Of a DNA stretch of 64,000 nt, positions 6,587 to 50,730 are shown piece after piece. How positions within the stretch are numbered: the first letter of the stretch is position 1; each line of letters begins with the position of its first letter. The notes beneath the pieces are model-generated. The model searched no databases. It worked only from the letters and a program-made list of their open reading frames with translations, and had not been told where the DNA came from. Source of the DNA: Nitrospirota bacterium (GTDB lineage Bacteria > Nitrospirota > Thermodesulfovibrionia > UBA6902); the NCBI GenBank assembly GCA_016234115.1, contig JACRHD010000021.1, positions 1-64,000 of the forward strand, written 5' to 3'. The translations under genes were made by a program, and so were the position numbers.

Positions 6587-8284
6587 ATGCTGCGCGTTCT
6601 ACATATCAAGAACTTCTCCATAATCGAAGACGCGACCATAGAATTCGCAGAAGGGTTCAACGTCCTCACAGGTGAAACAGGGGCAGGGAAATCCATTGTC
6701 ATAGACGCGCTGTGCCTTGCCCTTGGCGAAAGGGCGGCAGGCGACCTTGTCCGAAGCGGTGAGAAAGAGGCGGTCGTCGCGGCTTTTTTTGATATATCTC
6801 CGGACCTCCTTAATCCCGTTACGAACCGGTTCCTTAAGGACTTCGGGATCAATATTGAAGACGGTCTCATCCTGAAGAGGATCATATCTTCCCAGGGCAA
6901 GAGCCGCGCCTTCGTCAACGGCTCCATGGTCAGCGTACAGACCCTCTCGGACATCAGCAGGAGCATAATCGACGTTCACGGACAATATGAGCACCAGTCC
7001 CTGCTCTCAGCCGACAACCAGTTGGACCTGCTCGACTCATACGGAGGGCTCCTTTATGAGAGACAGGAAGTAAAAAATATTTATGACGCGCTGTCCGCCC
7101 TGAAAGACCGGATAGCGGAGCTTACACTTAAAGAAAATGAGAGGGACCGGAAAGTCGACCTTCTCGGGTTCCAGATTAATGAAATCGAGTCTGCAAGGTT
7201 GACCCCCGGCGAGGAAGAGAAGCTTTCGGATGAGCTTAAGGTCCTGAGCAGTTCAGTCCGTCTTGCGGAACTTGCGGGCGCGGCTTATGACTCCCTTTAT
7301 TCGTCAGATTCATCCTGCATAACGGGGCTGTCACGCATACTCGCTTCCCTCCGTGAAATATCCGTAATCGATCCGCGCGCGGACGACGCGGTCAGGTCCG
7401 TCAGTGACGCTCTGCCGCTTCTTGAAGATGCCGGATATTTTCTCAGGGATTATAAGGAGAATATAAATAATGACCCTCAGCGACTTGAACAGATACAGCA
7501 GCGGCTTGAGCTCATAAAGGGGCTGGAGCGAAAATACGGCGGCAGCGTCGCGGAAATTCTTGCTTATATGGACAAAGCAGGGGCCGAGCTCGAGGCGCTT
7601 GAGCGCGCCGGGGCAAGCCTGGAGGAATCGGCAAAGGAACTCGATAGACTCAGGGGCGGCCTGACGGAGAAGGCCCGGGAGCTTTCAAAAAAGAGGAAGG
7701 CCGTGTCAAAAAAAATAGAGTCCGGGGTCCTGTCGCAGCTTTCGGAGCTGTCCATGTCCGGCACGAGATTCTCGATCTCTTTGACGCAGGAAACCGGCGA
7801 TGACACAAGTGACGGATTCACGGCCACGCAGAAGGGGATTGACTGTATCGAATTTCTCATCTCGCCGAATATCGGCGAAGACCTGCGACCCCTGTCGAAG
7901 ATAGCGTCCGGCGGGGAGCTTTCAAGGATCATGTTAGCATTAAAGAGCATTATGGCCAGAGGAGATAATATCCCTGTCCTTATCTTCGACGAGATCGACG
8001 CGGGGATCGGGGGAACAACGGCGGAAAGGGTCGGCCGGAAACTGAAAAATCTCTCATCGACGCACCAGGTAATATGCATCACCCACCTTCCACAGGTGGC
8101 AACATACGCCGACAGGCATCTGAGGATTGAAAAAAAGATCAAGAAAGACAGGACAATTGTCGAAATAAATGTTATTGAAAAAGATGAAAGGGCCGCTGAG
8201 ATCGCGCGCATGTTAGGCGGAGAGATTTCAGAGGTCTCGTTAAAACACGCAAAAGAAATATTGAGGAAGGGGAAGATACAATGA
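6587..8284 (+). CDS. recN: DNA repair protein RecN
   Basis: This 565-residue SMC-like ATPase acts in double-strand break repair. It has a Walker A site GETGAGKS (residues 29-36), a long charged coiled-coil middle, the ABC signature ASGGELSRIMLA and a Walker B VLIFDEIDAGIGG. Length and domain order are normal for RecN. The start codon follows a consensus -10 box by only five nt with no ribosome site. The stop overlaps the next small gene by four nt (ATGA). Confidence 0.95.
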   Translation: MLRVLHIKNFSIIEDATIEFAEGFNVLTGETGAGKSIVIDALCLALGERAAGDLVRSGEKEAVVAAFFDISPDLLNPVTNRFLKDFGINIEDGLILKRIISSQGKSRAFVNGSMVSVQTLSDISRSIIDVHGQYEHQSLLSADNQLDLLDSYGGLLYERQEVKNIYDALSALKDRIAELTLKENERDRKVDLLGFQINEIESARLTPGEEEKLSDELKVLSSSVRLAELAGAAYDSLYSSDSSCITGLSRILASLREISVIDPRADDAVRSVSDALPLLEDAGYFLRDYKENINNDPQRLEQIQQRLELIKGLERKYGGSVAEILAYMDKAGAELEALERAGASLEESAKELDRLRGGLTEKARELSKKRKAVSKKIESGVLSQLSELSMSGTRFSISLTQETGDDTSDGFTATQKGIDCIEFLISPNIGEDLRPLSKIASGGELSRIMLALKSIMARGDNIPVLIFDEIDAGIGGTTAERVGRKLKNLSSTHQVICITHLPQVATYADRHLRIEKKIKKDRTIVEINVIEKDERAAEIARMLGGEISEVSLKHAKEILRKGKIQ

Positions 8285-8427
8285 AAAAGACGGTCTTGGT
8301 TTTCGTTACGGCGCTCTTTCTTGCCGCAAGCTGCACGGTCCCTCCGGGACAGATCAAAAAACAGACAGCGCCTGGACAAATAAAAAAGGTAACAGGAGAA
8401 AATCCGGCTTCAGGCAAAAAGAAATAA
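8281..8427 (+). CDS. Tiny lipoprotein with repeated PGQIKK motif
   Basis: This 48-residue product has a lysine-containing N terminus, a hydrophobic stretch and a lipobox ending LAASC, so it should be a membrane-anchored lipoprotein. The mature part is short and basic and contains PGQIKK twice, eleven residues apart, before a lysine tail. The ATG overlaps the recN stop (ATGA), so it is probably translationally coupled to recN. A GC-rich hairpin follows it. Function unknown; its reality rests on the lipobox, the coupling and the internal repeat. Confidence 0.72.
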   Translation: MKKTVLVFVTALFLAASCTVPPGQIKKQTAPGQIKKVTGENPASGKKK

Positions 8428-8440
8428 TCAACACTTTAGC

Positions 8441-8487
8441 TCCCCTCCCTTGACGGGCCTGTCCCGATGACTTTTTCGGGGAGGGGA
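8441..8487. terminator. GC-rich hairpin after the recN operon
   Basis: Arms tcccctccc (8441-8449) and gggagggga (8479-8487) pair perfectly; an inner stem may add to this. The run of T expected of a textbook intrinsic terminator is missing on the plus strand, so it may be only a repeat hairpin. Confidence 0.4.
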
Positions 8488-8510
8488 TTAATGGGAGGGT
8501 GGATATAAAG

Positions 8511-8870
8511 ATGACAGAAGGAATTAACTGGTCAAACAGCCTCAGCAGCGCCGTCGAATCCGCGAAAAAAGAAAACAAACTCGTCCTGGTTGATTTTTAC
8601 AGCCCGACCTGAGGCGCCTGTCAGAGAATGGAAACAGGTACGTTTCCGAATGAAACGGTACAGAAGTATATCAGGGATTATTTTATTCCGGTCAAATATG
8701 AATCCGGCAGGGATGCCGAGCAGTTTACGAGGTTCGGCGTGTTCTCCATCCCGTCCTTCTTCATCCTTGATGCCGGCGGCGAAGTGGTATACCGTATGGT
8801 GGGATACTTCAGCCCCGAGGATTTTATCACCCAGTTTATAAGCGCGCTCCAGATCGCGGCGAAGTTGTAG
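8511..8870 (+). CDS. Thioredoxin-like protein, candidate selenoprotein (in-frame UGA)
   Basis: Read through, this is a 119-codon thioredoxin-fold protein of the Thioredoxin_7/DUF255-like type. It has the usual N-terminal sequence for the group (AKKENKLVLVDFYSPT), then an in-frame TGA at 8610-8612 (codon 34), then GACQRMETGTFPN and the cis-proline segment FSIPSFFILD. The TGA falls exactly at the first catalytic position of a CxxC site, giving U-G-A-C. The frame is open on both sides and family sequence is intact after the TGA, as expected for selenocysteine insertion. Two hairpins follow the TGA. No sel genes are in the window. The alternative is a recent TGT/TGC to TGA nonsense mutation or a sequencing error. 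Confidence 0.65.
8616..8661 (+). promoter_or_regulatory. Candidate bacterial SECIS hairpins
   Basis: Two folds lie just after the UGA. The first pairs GCCTGT (8616-8621) with ACAGGT (8634-8639). The second pairs GTACGTTT (8638-8645) with AAACGGTAC (8653-8661) through one bulged G, with a seven-nt loop starting 33 nt after the UGA. That distance lies in the range known for bacterial SECIS elements. Neither loop meets every consensus rule. Confidence 0.35.
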
Positions 8871-8933
8871 AGGCGCAGGGGCGAACGGCCGTTCGCCCCT
8901 GCCATAATCTTCGATATTTGTGAATAATCCGGG

Positions 8934-9509
8934 TTAAAACTTGATCTTCGGCGCTGCCGCTTCTCCCTCGGGTATTTCATAATACTCGGCGCTTGTGACC
9001 CCGGCCAGGCCCGCAAATATCCGTCCGAATACCGTCCTGATGTACGTATTAAGAGTGCGTACCGCTTCGTTGTATCTCATCCTCTCGACGGATATCCTGT
9101 TCTCCGTGCCTTCGAGGCTGTCCTGGAGTTTCAGGAACGACTCGTTGGCCTTGAGTTGGGGATAATTCTCCTGAAGCAGAAGCAGCCTGGACAGGGACCG
9201 TTCAAGGTCGCCCGAGGCCTGTATCTTGTCTTTCACGGAGCCGGCCTGAAAATATTTGGTCCTCGCGTCCGCGATGTGCTCGAAGAGCTCTTTTTCATGT
9301 GCCGCGTATCCCTTGACCGTCTCGACAAGGTTAGGTATAAGGTCATACCTCCTCTTCAACTGGTTCTCCACCTGCGCCCACTGAGATTTTACCTGTTCAT
9401 CCATGGAGACCACATTATTGTATCCACCGATTATCCATTTCCCGAACACAAGACCGGCGACAATCAAAACACCTAAAACAATCAGAGTGATTTTTAAGCC
9501 CTTTGACAT
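8934..9509 (-). CDS. lemA: LemA family membrane protein
   Basis: This 191-residue protein has one N-terminal transmembrane helix (residues 5-25) followed by a helical cytoplasmic or periplasmic domain with the LemA signature segments YNNVVSMDEQVKSQWAQVEN and QLKRRYDLIPNLVETVKGY. I chose the ATG at 9509 rather than the upstream TTG because aaggaggg lies directly before it. A strong promoter is placed 48 nt upstream. LemA proteins often neighbour TPM-domain proteins, but none is here. Biochemical function of the family is not settled. Confidence 0.93.
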   Translation of the reverse strand: MSKGLKITLIVLGVLIVAGLVFGKWIIGGYNNVVSMDEQVKSQWAQVENQLKRRYDLIPNLVETVKGYAAHEKELFEHIADARTKYFQAGSVKDKIQASGDLERSLSRLLLLQENYPQLKANESFLKLQDSLEGTENRISVERMRYNEAVRTLNTYIRTVFGRIFAGLAGVTSAEYYEIPEGEAAAPKIKF

Positions 9510-9556
9510 GGACCCTCCTTTCAAGACCGAATTTTTCGATAAATTGCCGAAGAACT

Positions 9557-15405: not shown

Positions 15406-15475
15406 GAGTCAAGAGTTATGAGTCAAGAAAAAGGCAGGCTTAACTCTTAACTCTTAACTCCAAACTCTAAACTCT
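15396..15475. repeat. Heptamer-arm inverted repeat supplying the recG stop
   Basis: Units taagagt, taagagt, caagagt, tatgagt run from 15396 to 15423 and their complement (ttaactc, ttaactc, caaactc) from about 15439 to 15475. The recG stop codon at 15403-15405 is the first triplet of the second unit. Confidence 0.85.
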
Positions 15476-27717: not shown

Positions 27718-28179
27718 TTGGAAAAATATGAGCAGATAGACATCTCCGGTGACGTAGGGTTACGGGTAAGAGGACATTCCGTTACCGAGCTTTTTGTCAA
27801 CGCGGCTGAAGGGATGGGGGAGCTCATTACGGACACGTCTCTCATAGACGTTAAAGAAGAAAAGGAGGTCGCGCTGACGTCCGACGGCACGGAGGGCCTC
27901 CTTATACAGTGGCTTAATGAGCTTATATTCCTCTTCGATACGCATGGCTTTATCGGGAAAATATTTCGTGTCGATATAACCGGGGGGCAAGGGTCAGGGG
28001 GCAAGGGGCAAGGGGACAGAGGTCGGGATGAGGTTAAATTGACCGCAAAAATTTCAGGTGGTCTCTTTGATCAGGGAGTCAACGAAAGCCGGCTGCTCCT
28101 GAAGGCCGCGACGTATCATGATCTGTCGATCAGACAGGTTGGGTCATATTGGGAAGCGGAGGTGATTTTTGATATATAA
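27718..28179 (+). CDS. Archease with an in-frame heptamer insertion
   Basis: This 153-residue protein is the activator of the RNA ligase RtcB, encoded next on the same strand. Family segments are ISGDVGLRVRGHSVTELF, LLIQWLNELIFLFDTHGF, KAATYHDLSIRQ and the C-terminal VIFDI with its metal-binding acidic end. Between the FRVDIT and VKLTAKISGG strands lies a glycine-rich insert (GGQGSGGKGQGDRG) written by six 7-nt repeat units. The start is a TTG with a weak ribosome site. The insertion falls in a loop region, so the protein may still work. Confidence 0.9.
   Translation: MEKYEQIDISGDVGLRVRGHSVTELFVNAAEGMGELITDTSLIDVKEEKEVALTSDGTEGLLIQWLNELIFLFDTHGFIGKIFRVDITGGQGSGGKGQGDRGRDEVKLTAKISGGLFDQGVNESRLLLKAATYHDLSIRQVGSYWEAEVIFDI
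27983..28024 (+). repeat. Six-unit heptamer block inside the archease gene
   Basis: The units are gggggca, agggtca, gggggca, aggggca, aggggac, agaggtc: 42 nt, a multiple of both 7 and 3, so the reading frame is kept. The same word family forms intergenic blocks at 32871, 44157 and 56581. Confidence 0.85.
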
Positions 28180-29927: not shown

Positions 29928-30785
29928 ATGGAAAAAGAACAGTTAAAAATCGGCAGGATCCCTTACGCGAACTTTTACCCGATATTTTACTATTTCGATA
30001 AAGAGTGCAAAAATTCGGCATATAAGTTTGTAAAAGGCGTTCCTTCAAAGGTCAACAGGATGCTGAGGGAGGGCGAACTTGATATAAGCCCGTCATCATC
30101 CATCGAGTTTTTGCGAAACAGGAGCGAATATCTCATACTGCCCTGGTTTTCCATCAACTCCTCCGGGTGCATCAACAGCATCCTCCTGTTTTCGCAGTGC
30201 CCCATACAGGAGCTCGGAGGGAAGGACATAGCGCTTTCTTCGGAATCCGAGACATCCGCCGCGCTGCTGAGGATTATACTGAAAGAATTTCTTTCCCTGA
30301 AATGCAGGTTCAGCCCGGTCCACAGGCGGAGCGTAAAAAATATCCTCTCCTCCTTCTCAGCGGTCCTCCATATCGGGGACACGGCGATGAGGGAAGCGAA
30401 GAAATTAGAGTCAAGAGTCAAGAGTCAAGAGTCAAGTGTTCTTAACTCTAAACTCCTGACTCTTAACTCTATCTATGTTTACGACCTGGGGGATCTGTGG
30501 TTTAAATATACGGGGCTCCCCTTCGTGTTCGCCTTATGGATAGTCAGGAAAAACGCCGCTTCTGAAAAAGATGAGCTTGTCAGGCAATTCGCGTCAGACC
30601 TGCTGAAGGCGAAAAAGTATGCGAGGAGGCAATTCCCTCTGATAGCCGGTGAGACGCCCCAGAGAAAATGGCTGAGCGAAAAAGAACTCATTGATTACTG
30701 GAAGACGATCTCTTATGATTTCACAGAAAAACAGATGGAGGGGCTCAACCTGTTCGAGAAATATTTGAAGAAATTCAGGCAATGA
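29928..30785 (+). CDS. mqnA: Chorismate dehydratase MqnA with heptamer insertion
   Basis: This 285-residue enzyme makes 3-enolpyruvyl-benzoate from chorismate, the first step of the futalosine menaquinone route. The periplasmic-binding-like fold starts KIGRIPYANFYPIFY; ISPSSSIEFLRN and the YDLGDLWFKYTGLPFVFALW segment are typical. Between AVLHIGDTAMREAKK and IYVYDLGDLW lies about 21 residues of repeat-encoded sequence (ESRVKSQESSVLNSKLL...). I use the ATG at 29928; a GTG at 29922 is possible. Other mqn genes are not in the window. Confidence 0.93.
   Translation: MEKEQLKIGRIPYANFYPIFYYFDKECKNSAYKFVKGVPSKVNRMLREGELDISPSSSIEFLRNRSEYLILPWFSINSSGCINSILLFSQCPIQELGGKDIALSSESETSAALLRIILKEFLSLKCRFSPVHRRSVKNILSSFSAVLHIGDTAMREAKKLESRVKSQESSVLNSKLLTLNSIYVYDLGDLWFKYTGLPFVFALWIVRKNAASEKDELVRQFASDLLKAKKYARRQFPLIAGETPQRKWLSEKELIDYWKTISYDFTEKQMEGLNLFEKYLKKFRQ
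30407..30469 (+). repeat. Nine-unit heptamer hairpin block inside mqnA
   Basis: Four agagtca units, one agtgttc and then ttaactc, taaactc, ctgactc, ttaactc make 63 nt, nine units, and keep frame. Left and right halves are complementary and would form a hairpin in the mRNA. This is the same aactctt family as the blocks at 13184, 15396, 34253 and 41715. Confidence 0.92.
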
Positions 30786-32870: not shown

Positions 32871-32901
32871 AAGGGTCAAGGGTCAAGGGTCAAGGGTCCG
32901 G
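32871..32901. repeat. Single-arm gggtcaa heptamer tract
   Basis: Four tandem agggtca units lie just upstream of the ald start on the complementary strand. No opposing arm is visible nearby. Confidence 0.8.
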
Positions 32902-34252: not shown

Positions 34253-34329
34253 TAACTCATAACTCATAACTCATAACTCATAACTCATAACTCTTAACTC
34301 TTAACTCTTGACTCTTGACTCATAACTCT
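34253..34329. repeat. Eleven exact heptamer units at the pdxA stop
   Basis: Five taactca units, three taactct, then tgactct, tgactca and taactct make 77 nt with no gaps. Unlike most blocks it has no opposing arm. The pdxA stop codon (34320-34322) and its last residues lie in the final two units. Confidence 0.92.
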
Positions 34330-43658: not shown

Positions 43659-43756
43659 GCAAGTAGTTAGTAGTAAGTAGTTAGTAGTTAGGGGGGGCGC
43701 TGGTCTCAAATTCCCATCTTTTCCCTTAACTGCTAACTACTAACTACTTTCTACTG
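43659..43756. repeat. Heptamer-arm inverted repeat, taactac family
   Basis: Left arm of gtagtta/gtagtaa words (43659-43697), right arm of taactgc/taactac words (43724-43756). It lies between the [2Fe-2S] gene and the NuoF-like gene. Confidence 0.85.
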
Positions 43757-50692: not shown

Positions 50693-50730
50693 AAAATTTG
50701 AGATTTGAAATTTGAGATTTGATATTTTTT
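50693..50730. repeat. Heptamer tract, atttgag family
   Basis: Tandem words atttgag, atttgaa, atttgag, atttgat lie between lolC and lolD. No clear opposing arm. Confidence 0.8.

Follow-up and report, generated by a model that had tools for sequence, protein, structure and literature searches.

The gene considered here lies in a window of 64,000 nucleotides (the whole stretch of DNA that was analysed), in which an open frame extends from ATG 8511 to a TAG stop at 8868–8870. As the initial annotation had proposed, its sole in-frame interruption is the TGA at 8610–8612, and 85 sense codons follow that TGA, the number originally given. With TGA read as selenocysteine (Sec, U), the predicted 119-aa product would begin MTEGINWSNSLSSAVESAKKENKLVLVDFYSPTUGACQRMETGTF..., and the codons immediately after the TGA are GGC GCC TGT (Gly-Ala-Cys), giving an active site U34-G-A-C37; the 'GAC' first described as following the TGA is therefore right as a string of amino acids, giving the motif U-G-A-C, but not as a codon. 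Standard-code calling finds only 8628–8870 (80 aa) in this frame, just the truncation that had been foreseen, so that routine annotation of the gene would lose the active site. The features to which we refer are as follows.

8441–8487, + strand: inverted repeat TCCCCTCCC/GGGAGGGGA, 5' of the selenoprotein gene (sequence), possibly a terminator or leader hairpin
8493–8499, + strand: Shine-Dalgarno-like GGGAGGG 5' of ATG 8511 (sequence)
8511–8870, + strand: predicted thioredoxin-like selenoprotein gene, 119 aa, TGA as Sec34, TAG stop (open frame, Pfam, orthologues, AlphaFold)
8610–8612, + strand: TGA predicted to encode Sec34, the first residue of UxxC (all 17 Sec-form orthologues have TGA here, and the Cys-form ones TGC)
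8619–8621, + strand: codon for the putative resolving Cys37 of UGAC (invariant in the 22-row alignment)
8630–8647, + strand: predicted bacterial SECIS apical hairpin GGAAAC-AGGUAC-GUUUCC, arms 8630–8635 and 8642–8647, loop 8636–8641 (conservation, covariation)
8875–8902, no strand assigned: inverted repeat of 14 nt without mismatches, lying where the selenoprotein and LemA genes converge and perhaps acting as a terminator in both directions
8934–9524, – strand: LemA family gene, convergent neighbour (Pfam PF04011, 1.2e-57), adjoining the gene in 10 relatives
15439–15475, 27984–28015, 30407–30436, 32871–32898, 34253–34328, 43662–43691 and 50696–50727: 7-base tandem arrays

Neither of the neighbours, RecN and LemA, points to a pathway for the selenoprotein. 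The LemA gene is convergently downstream of the orthologue in ten relatives (nine with the Sec form and one with the Cys form), so these are syntenic orthologues. Two other observations on the window deserve mention. Immediately after the recN stop, on the + strand (8282–8428), there is a putative 48-aa lipoprotein with an AASC lipobox and repeated PGQIKK, which had no Pfam or NCBIfam match; and scattered through the window are many short tandem arrays with differing 7-base units (CTTAACT, AGAGTCA, AAGGGTC, TAACTCA x10.9 and others).

The 119-aa protein belongs, on its sequence, to the thioredoxin family: it matches Thioredoxin_2 (PF13098; 3.3e-15, 56.7 bits) and Thioredoxin_7 (PF13899; 1.6e-14, 54.2 bits), both above the curated cut-off of 27, and it does not reach that of the classical thioredoxin model TIGR01068 (37.3 bits, cut-off 96.8). 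AlphaFold confidently predicts a thioredoxin-like fold (pLDDT 90.9, pTM 0.84), in which residue 34 comes immediately before a helix formed by residues 35–44. Thioredoxin homology begins at about residue 7–18, and no signal peptide is apparent, which makes a cytoplasmic thiol-disulfide role the most likely one. A scan of genome contigs with this protein turned up only distant classical-type thioredoxins, mostly CGPC, with Cys at the Sec position.

Can this organism make selenoproteins? The machinery was queried family by family in the assembly to which the window belongs (3.5 Mb in size and 97% complete), and all four of the genes that the initial annotation had suggested looking for are present: selA (617.7 bits), selB (359.5 bits) and selD (325.5 bits) each exceed their curated cut-offs, as does selC, the tRNA-Sec (72.5 bits), which ARAGORN also calls, with anticodon TCA (UCA). 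The selD gene (contig C33; L119:1672-2745, minus strand) has an in-frame TGA of its own (MKPVRLTEKVTAGGU...), so recoding of UGA probably serves more than one gene in this genome; shortly 3' of that TGA is an inverted repeat, AGGUC-CGGCG-GACCU, that also looks SECIS-like. Among 24 genomes carrying a gene of the selenoprotein family, selB was over its cut-off in 21 and selA in 22, and both Sec-form and Cys-form genomes are represented among those with a missing match. One genome of the same genus (G007) has two full-length selB matches above the cut-off, on contigs C118 and C214, possibly through duplication or contamination.

Orthologues were sought in 150 relatives and then by a phylum-wide profile search. 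Sixteen other genomes have an orthologue (alignment identity 47–65%) with exactly one in-frame stop, which is always TGA and always at aligned codon 34; the remaining orthologues among the 150 relatives have TGC there, and the profile search added three Cys forms, bringing these to eight. Thus, with the window gene, 17 loci have TGA and eight have TGC at the same column, a distribution that rules out chance, gene decay and sequencing error alike; in particular, the recurrence of TGA in 16 further genomes means that TGA 8610 is not a misread TGT or TGC. Every aligned orthologue has either Cys or Sec at this position, in keeping with the prediction made from the window sequence. The TGA-bearing orthologues come from two neighbouring families of a single order. 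Invariant residues in a 22-row alignment are W7, F29, C/U34, C37, M40 and P81, the last being, we presume, the position of the expected cis-Pro. In comparisons of orthologues within the genus, pN/pS was 0.20–0.31 for the C-terminal part, below the 0.28–0.81 obtained for the N-terminal 32 codons (which contain about 20 synonymous sites), a difference that weighs against the selenoprotein reading.

In a phylogenetic tree that is only moderately resolved because the protein is short, all eight short-form Cys orthologues make up one clade (100/99), which is nested within the Sec forms (enclosing group 97/95), with the Sec paralogues outside. From this, there was probably a single change from Sec to Cys in the short-form family. 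In seven of the eight Cys forms there is a third Cys (CEACxxMxxC) where the window protein has Gly43, in the part of its gene that holds the SECIS loop.

The consensus of the Sec orthologues contains a single hairpin, at 8630–8647, with a 6-bp stem and a 6-nt loop starting A-G-G-U, the loop beginning 23 nt after the UGA (and not about 33 nt, as at first supposed). Its geometry agrees with the published bacterial SECIS rules and consensus (PMC13188914, Fig. 2A) in its 6-bp stem, its 6-nt loop with G second and another G following, and its distance of 23 nt from the UGA. Every one of the 17 Sec-form loci is fully paired (6/6), and only one to three of the six positions pair in the five Cys-form loci tested for pairing (the Cys-form loci, which lost the hairpin, are L100, L104-L107, L126, L138 and L140). 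In a 23-row alignment that includes a longer paralogue family, 98.6% of cells in the hairpin are paired, and in seven rows the pair formed by columns 24 and 35 is U-A in place of A-U, five of these rows keeping all six pairs; these seven are related sequences from one subfamily, the paralogous Sec family, so the compensatory change may be a single inherited event. The five have GAT (Asp) coupled with TAT (Tyr), and elsewhere the codons are GAA (Glu) and TTT (Phe). The covariation score of 0.302 was reached by none of 500 shuffles (mean 0.174), and was at most 0.092 when the hairpin was slid along the alignment. Synonymous codon choice across the hairpin is nearly frozen (ACA 15/16, GGT 14/15, ACG 15/15, TTT 17/17), conserved residues outside it mostly using two to five codons; third-position entropy is 0.41 bits over the hairpin versus 1.41–1.43 in the N- and C-terminal parts.

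The isolated 20-nt hairpin folds at –7.3 kcal/mol, slightly above the published threshold of ≤ –7.5 kcal/mol (PMC13188914), with orthologues ranging from –4.6 to –8.9; a 57-nt region folds at –11.9 kcal/mol, in another shape than the SECIS hairpin, and the fold of the region 3' of the TGA is no better than those of shuffled sequences (z –0.49). An Rfam search of the region matched no family, SECIS or other, so the assignment of the hairpin depends on the published rules and on conservation. The initial annotation had described two hairpins 3' of the TGA, and two that fit the description (CCUGU/ACAGG, 8617–8638, and CGUUUC/GAAACG, 8641–8657) can indeed form here, both overlapping 8630–8647, but neither is conserved and neither is the SECIS element. 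When the hairpin region was turned into a covariance model, just two places in the genome matched, the selenoprotein gene and its paralogue on contig C51; as close relatives of these two had supplied the model, differently shaped SECIS elements may exist elsewhere.

An in-frame stop can be read in other ways. Its being single, and the truncated frame returned by a standard caller, would suit a pseudogene, in which a nonsense mutation or sequencing error had interrupted an ordinary CxxC thioredoxin, but orthologues contradict this: the TGA is fixed at the same codon in frames otherwise intact in the 16 other genomes, a conserved RNA hairpin with frozen synonymous codons lies directly 3' of it, and the C-terminal part is under purifying selection (pN/pS about 0.2–0.3). 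We therefore rejected this reading, which is extremely improbable. Hardly better, still very improbable and likewise rejected, is the idea that the gene is merely an 80-aa C-terminal fragment starting at ATG 8628, the frame upstream being untranslated. That ATG (Met40) is in frame and conserved across all Sec orthologues, but it sits at the foot of the SECIS; residues 1–39 contain the conserved W7, F29, Cys37 and the Sec/Cys column, as well as the beginning of the thioredoxin homology, and the Cys orthologues read through this part without a stop.

A genome-wide reassignment of TGA to an amino acid, for which nothing speaks beyond the in-frame TGA itself, has a vanishingly small probability, and was rejected because TGA ends ordinary genes in the window, as had been pointed out from the start (recN, for example, ends with TGA 8282–8284); there is, moreover, a complete Sec machinery with a UCA tRNA-Sec. 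Finally, UGA might be read as Sec, yet serve chiefly as a switch that responds to selenium, in which case mRNA control or a truncated 33-aa product would outweigh the full-length enzyme. In its favour, Sec codons are as a rule read through inefficiently; conservation of the full-length fold across genera, and the retention of the enzyme by Cys forms without a recoding site, leave it only a minute chance of being correct.

It is thus almost certain, on comparative sequence evidence, that the gene specifies a thiol-disulfide oxidoreductase of thioredoxin fold, presumably cytoplasmic, with a Sec-Gly-Ala-Cys site, UGA 8610 presumably being decoded as Sec by means of the hairpin at 8630–8647; the U-G-A-C selenoprotein originally proposed is borne out by the machinery genes, the conserved Sec codon, the Cys/Sec column and the conserved and covarying predicted SECIS. 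We envisage that the hairpin would recruit SelB with Sec-tRNA(Sec), which would insert Sec at the UGA. The Sec34 selenolate, placed where the first active-site helix begins, would then attack an oxidized substrate, a disulfide or another, and Cys37 would resolve the resulting selenenylsulfide. With 17 Sec and eight Cys orthologues, a conserved neighbour, and Sec machinery in most genomes of both groups, the family offers a natural series suited to the study of Sec-to-Cys change accompanied by loss of the SECIS.

The paralogue on contig C51 (C51:113669-113989; L118:933-1604, minus strand) is a second predicted selenoprotein gene, longer than that in the window, with a Thioredoxin_2 domain, the active site NPGUIGCQQM, a TPR-like C-terminal tail and a SECIS hairpin of the same type (GGAUGC-AGUUAC-GUAUCC). 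Its TGA-bearing homologues are widespread in the class, and no NCBIfam model fits it above cut-off. The chances seem to us about even that the UGAC and NPGUIGC families are uncurated selenoprotein subfamilies of this phylum, with coding constrained by the SECIS (Glu/Asp and Phe/Tyr tracking the pair swap), and with replacement of Sec by Cys in one lineage that mostly kept the machinery.

How do these proteins relate to known systems? We found nothing specific in the literature on this family in Nitrospirae or Thermodesulfovibrio. The best NCBIfam and Foldseek resemblances are to DsbD-gamma (the C-terminal domain of DsbD) and the DsbD part of TsoB, with thioredoxins and 2KUC also among the Foldseek and profile matches, but the window protein has no membrane or rhodanese domain and is far under the cut-offs of those models (TsoB, NF045694: 43 bits against 805); likewise, it scored 26 bits against 275 for VPGUxxT and 21 against 300 for trx7_PDZ, the short UGAC family satisfying no NCBIfam model. 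The closest solved sequence relative, 2KUC (5.1e-20 with the profile), a putative disulphide-isomerase of Bacteroides thetaiotaomicron, is about 28% identical in a structural alignment, and its CGPC site has Cys where the window protein would have Sec. Sec-containing thioredoxins (PF00085, UxxC) share the fold and the placing of Sec at the first active-site position, but the window protein is in the Thioredoxin_2/7 branch and is not a classical thioredoxin. Nearest in kind are the PF13098 UxxC thiol:disulfide interchange selenoproteins, already catalogued as high-confidence predictions (representative WP_011366075.1; PMC13188914, PMC9312934). These too are predicted from sequence, and have the same top Pfam family and Sec first in UxxC, the likeness being one of domain and motif; the window protein is a stand-alone 119-aa domain without an evident signal peptide. 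Since such selenoproteins are already in reviews and no NCBIfam model fits, the window gene is best regarded as a further member of a known group.
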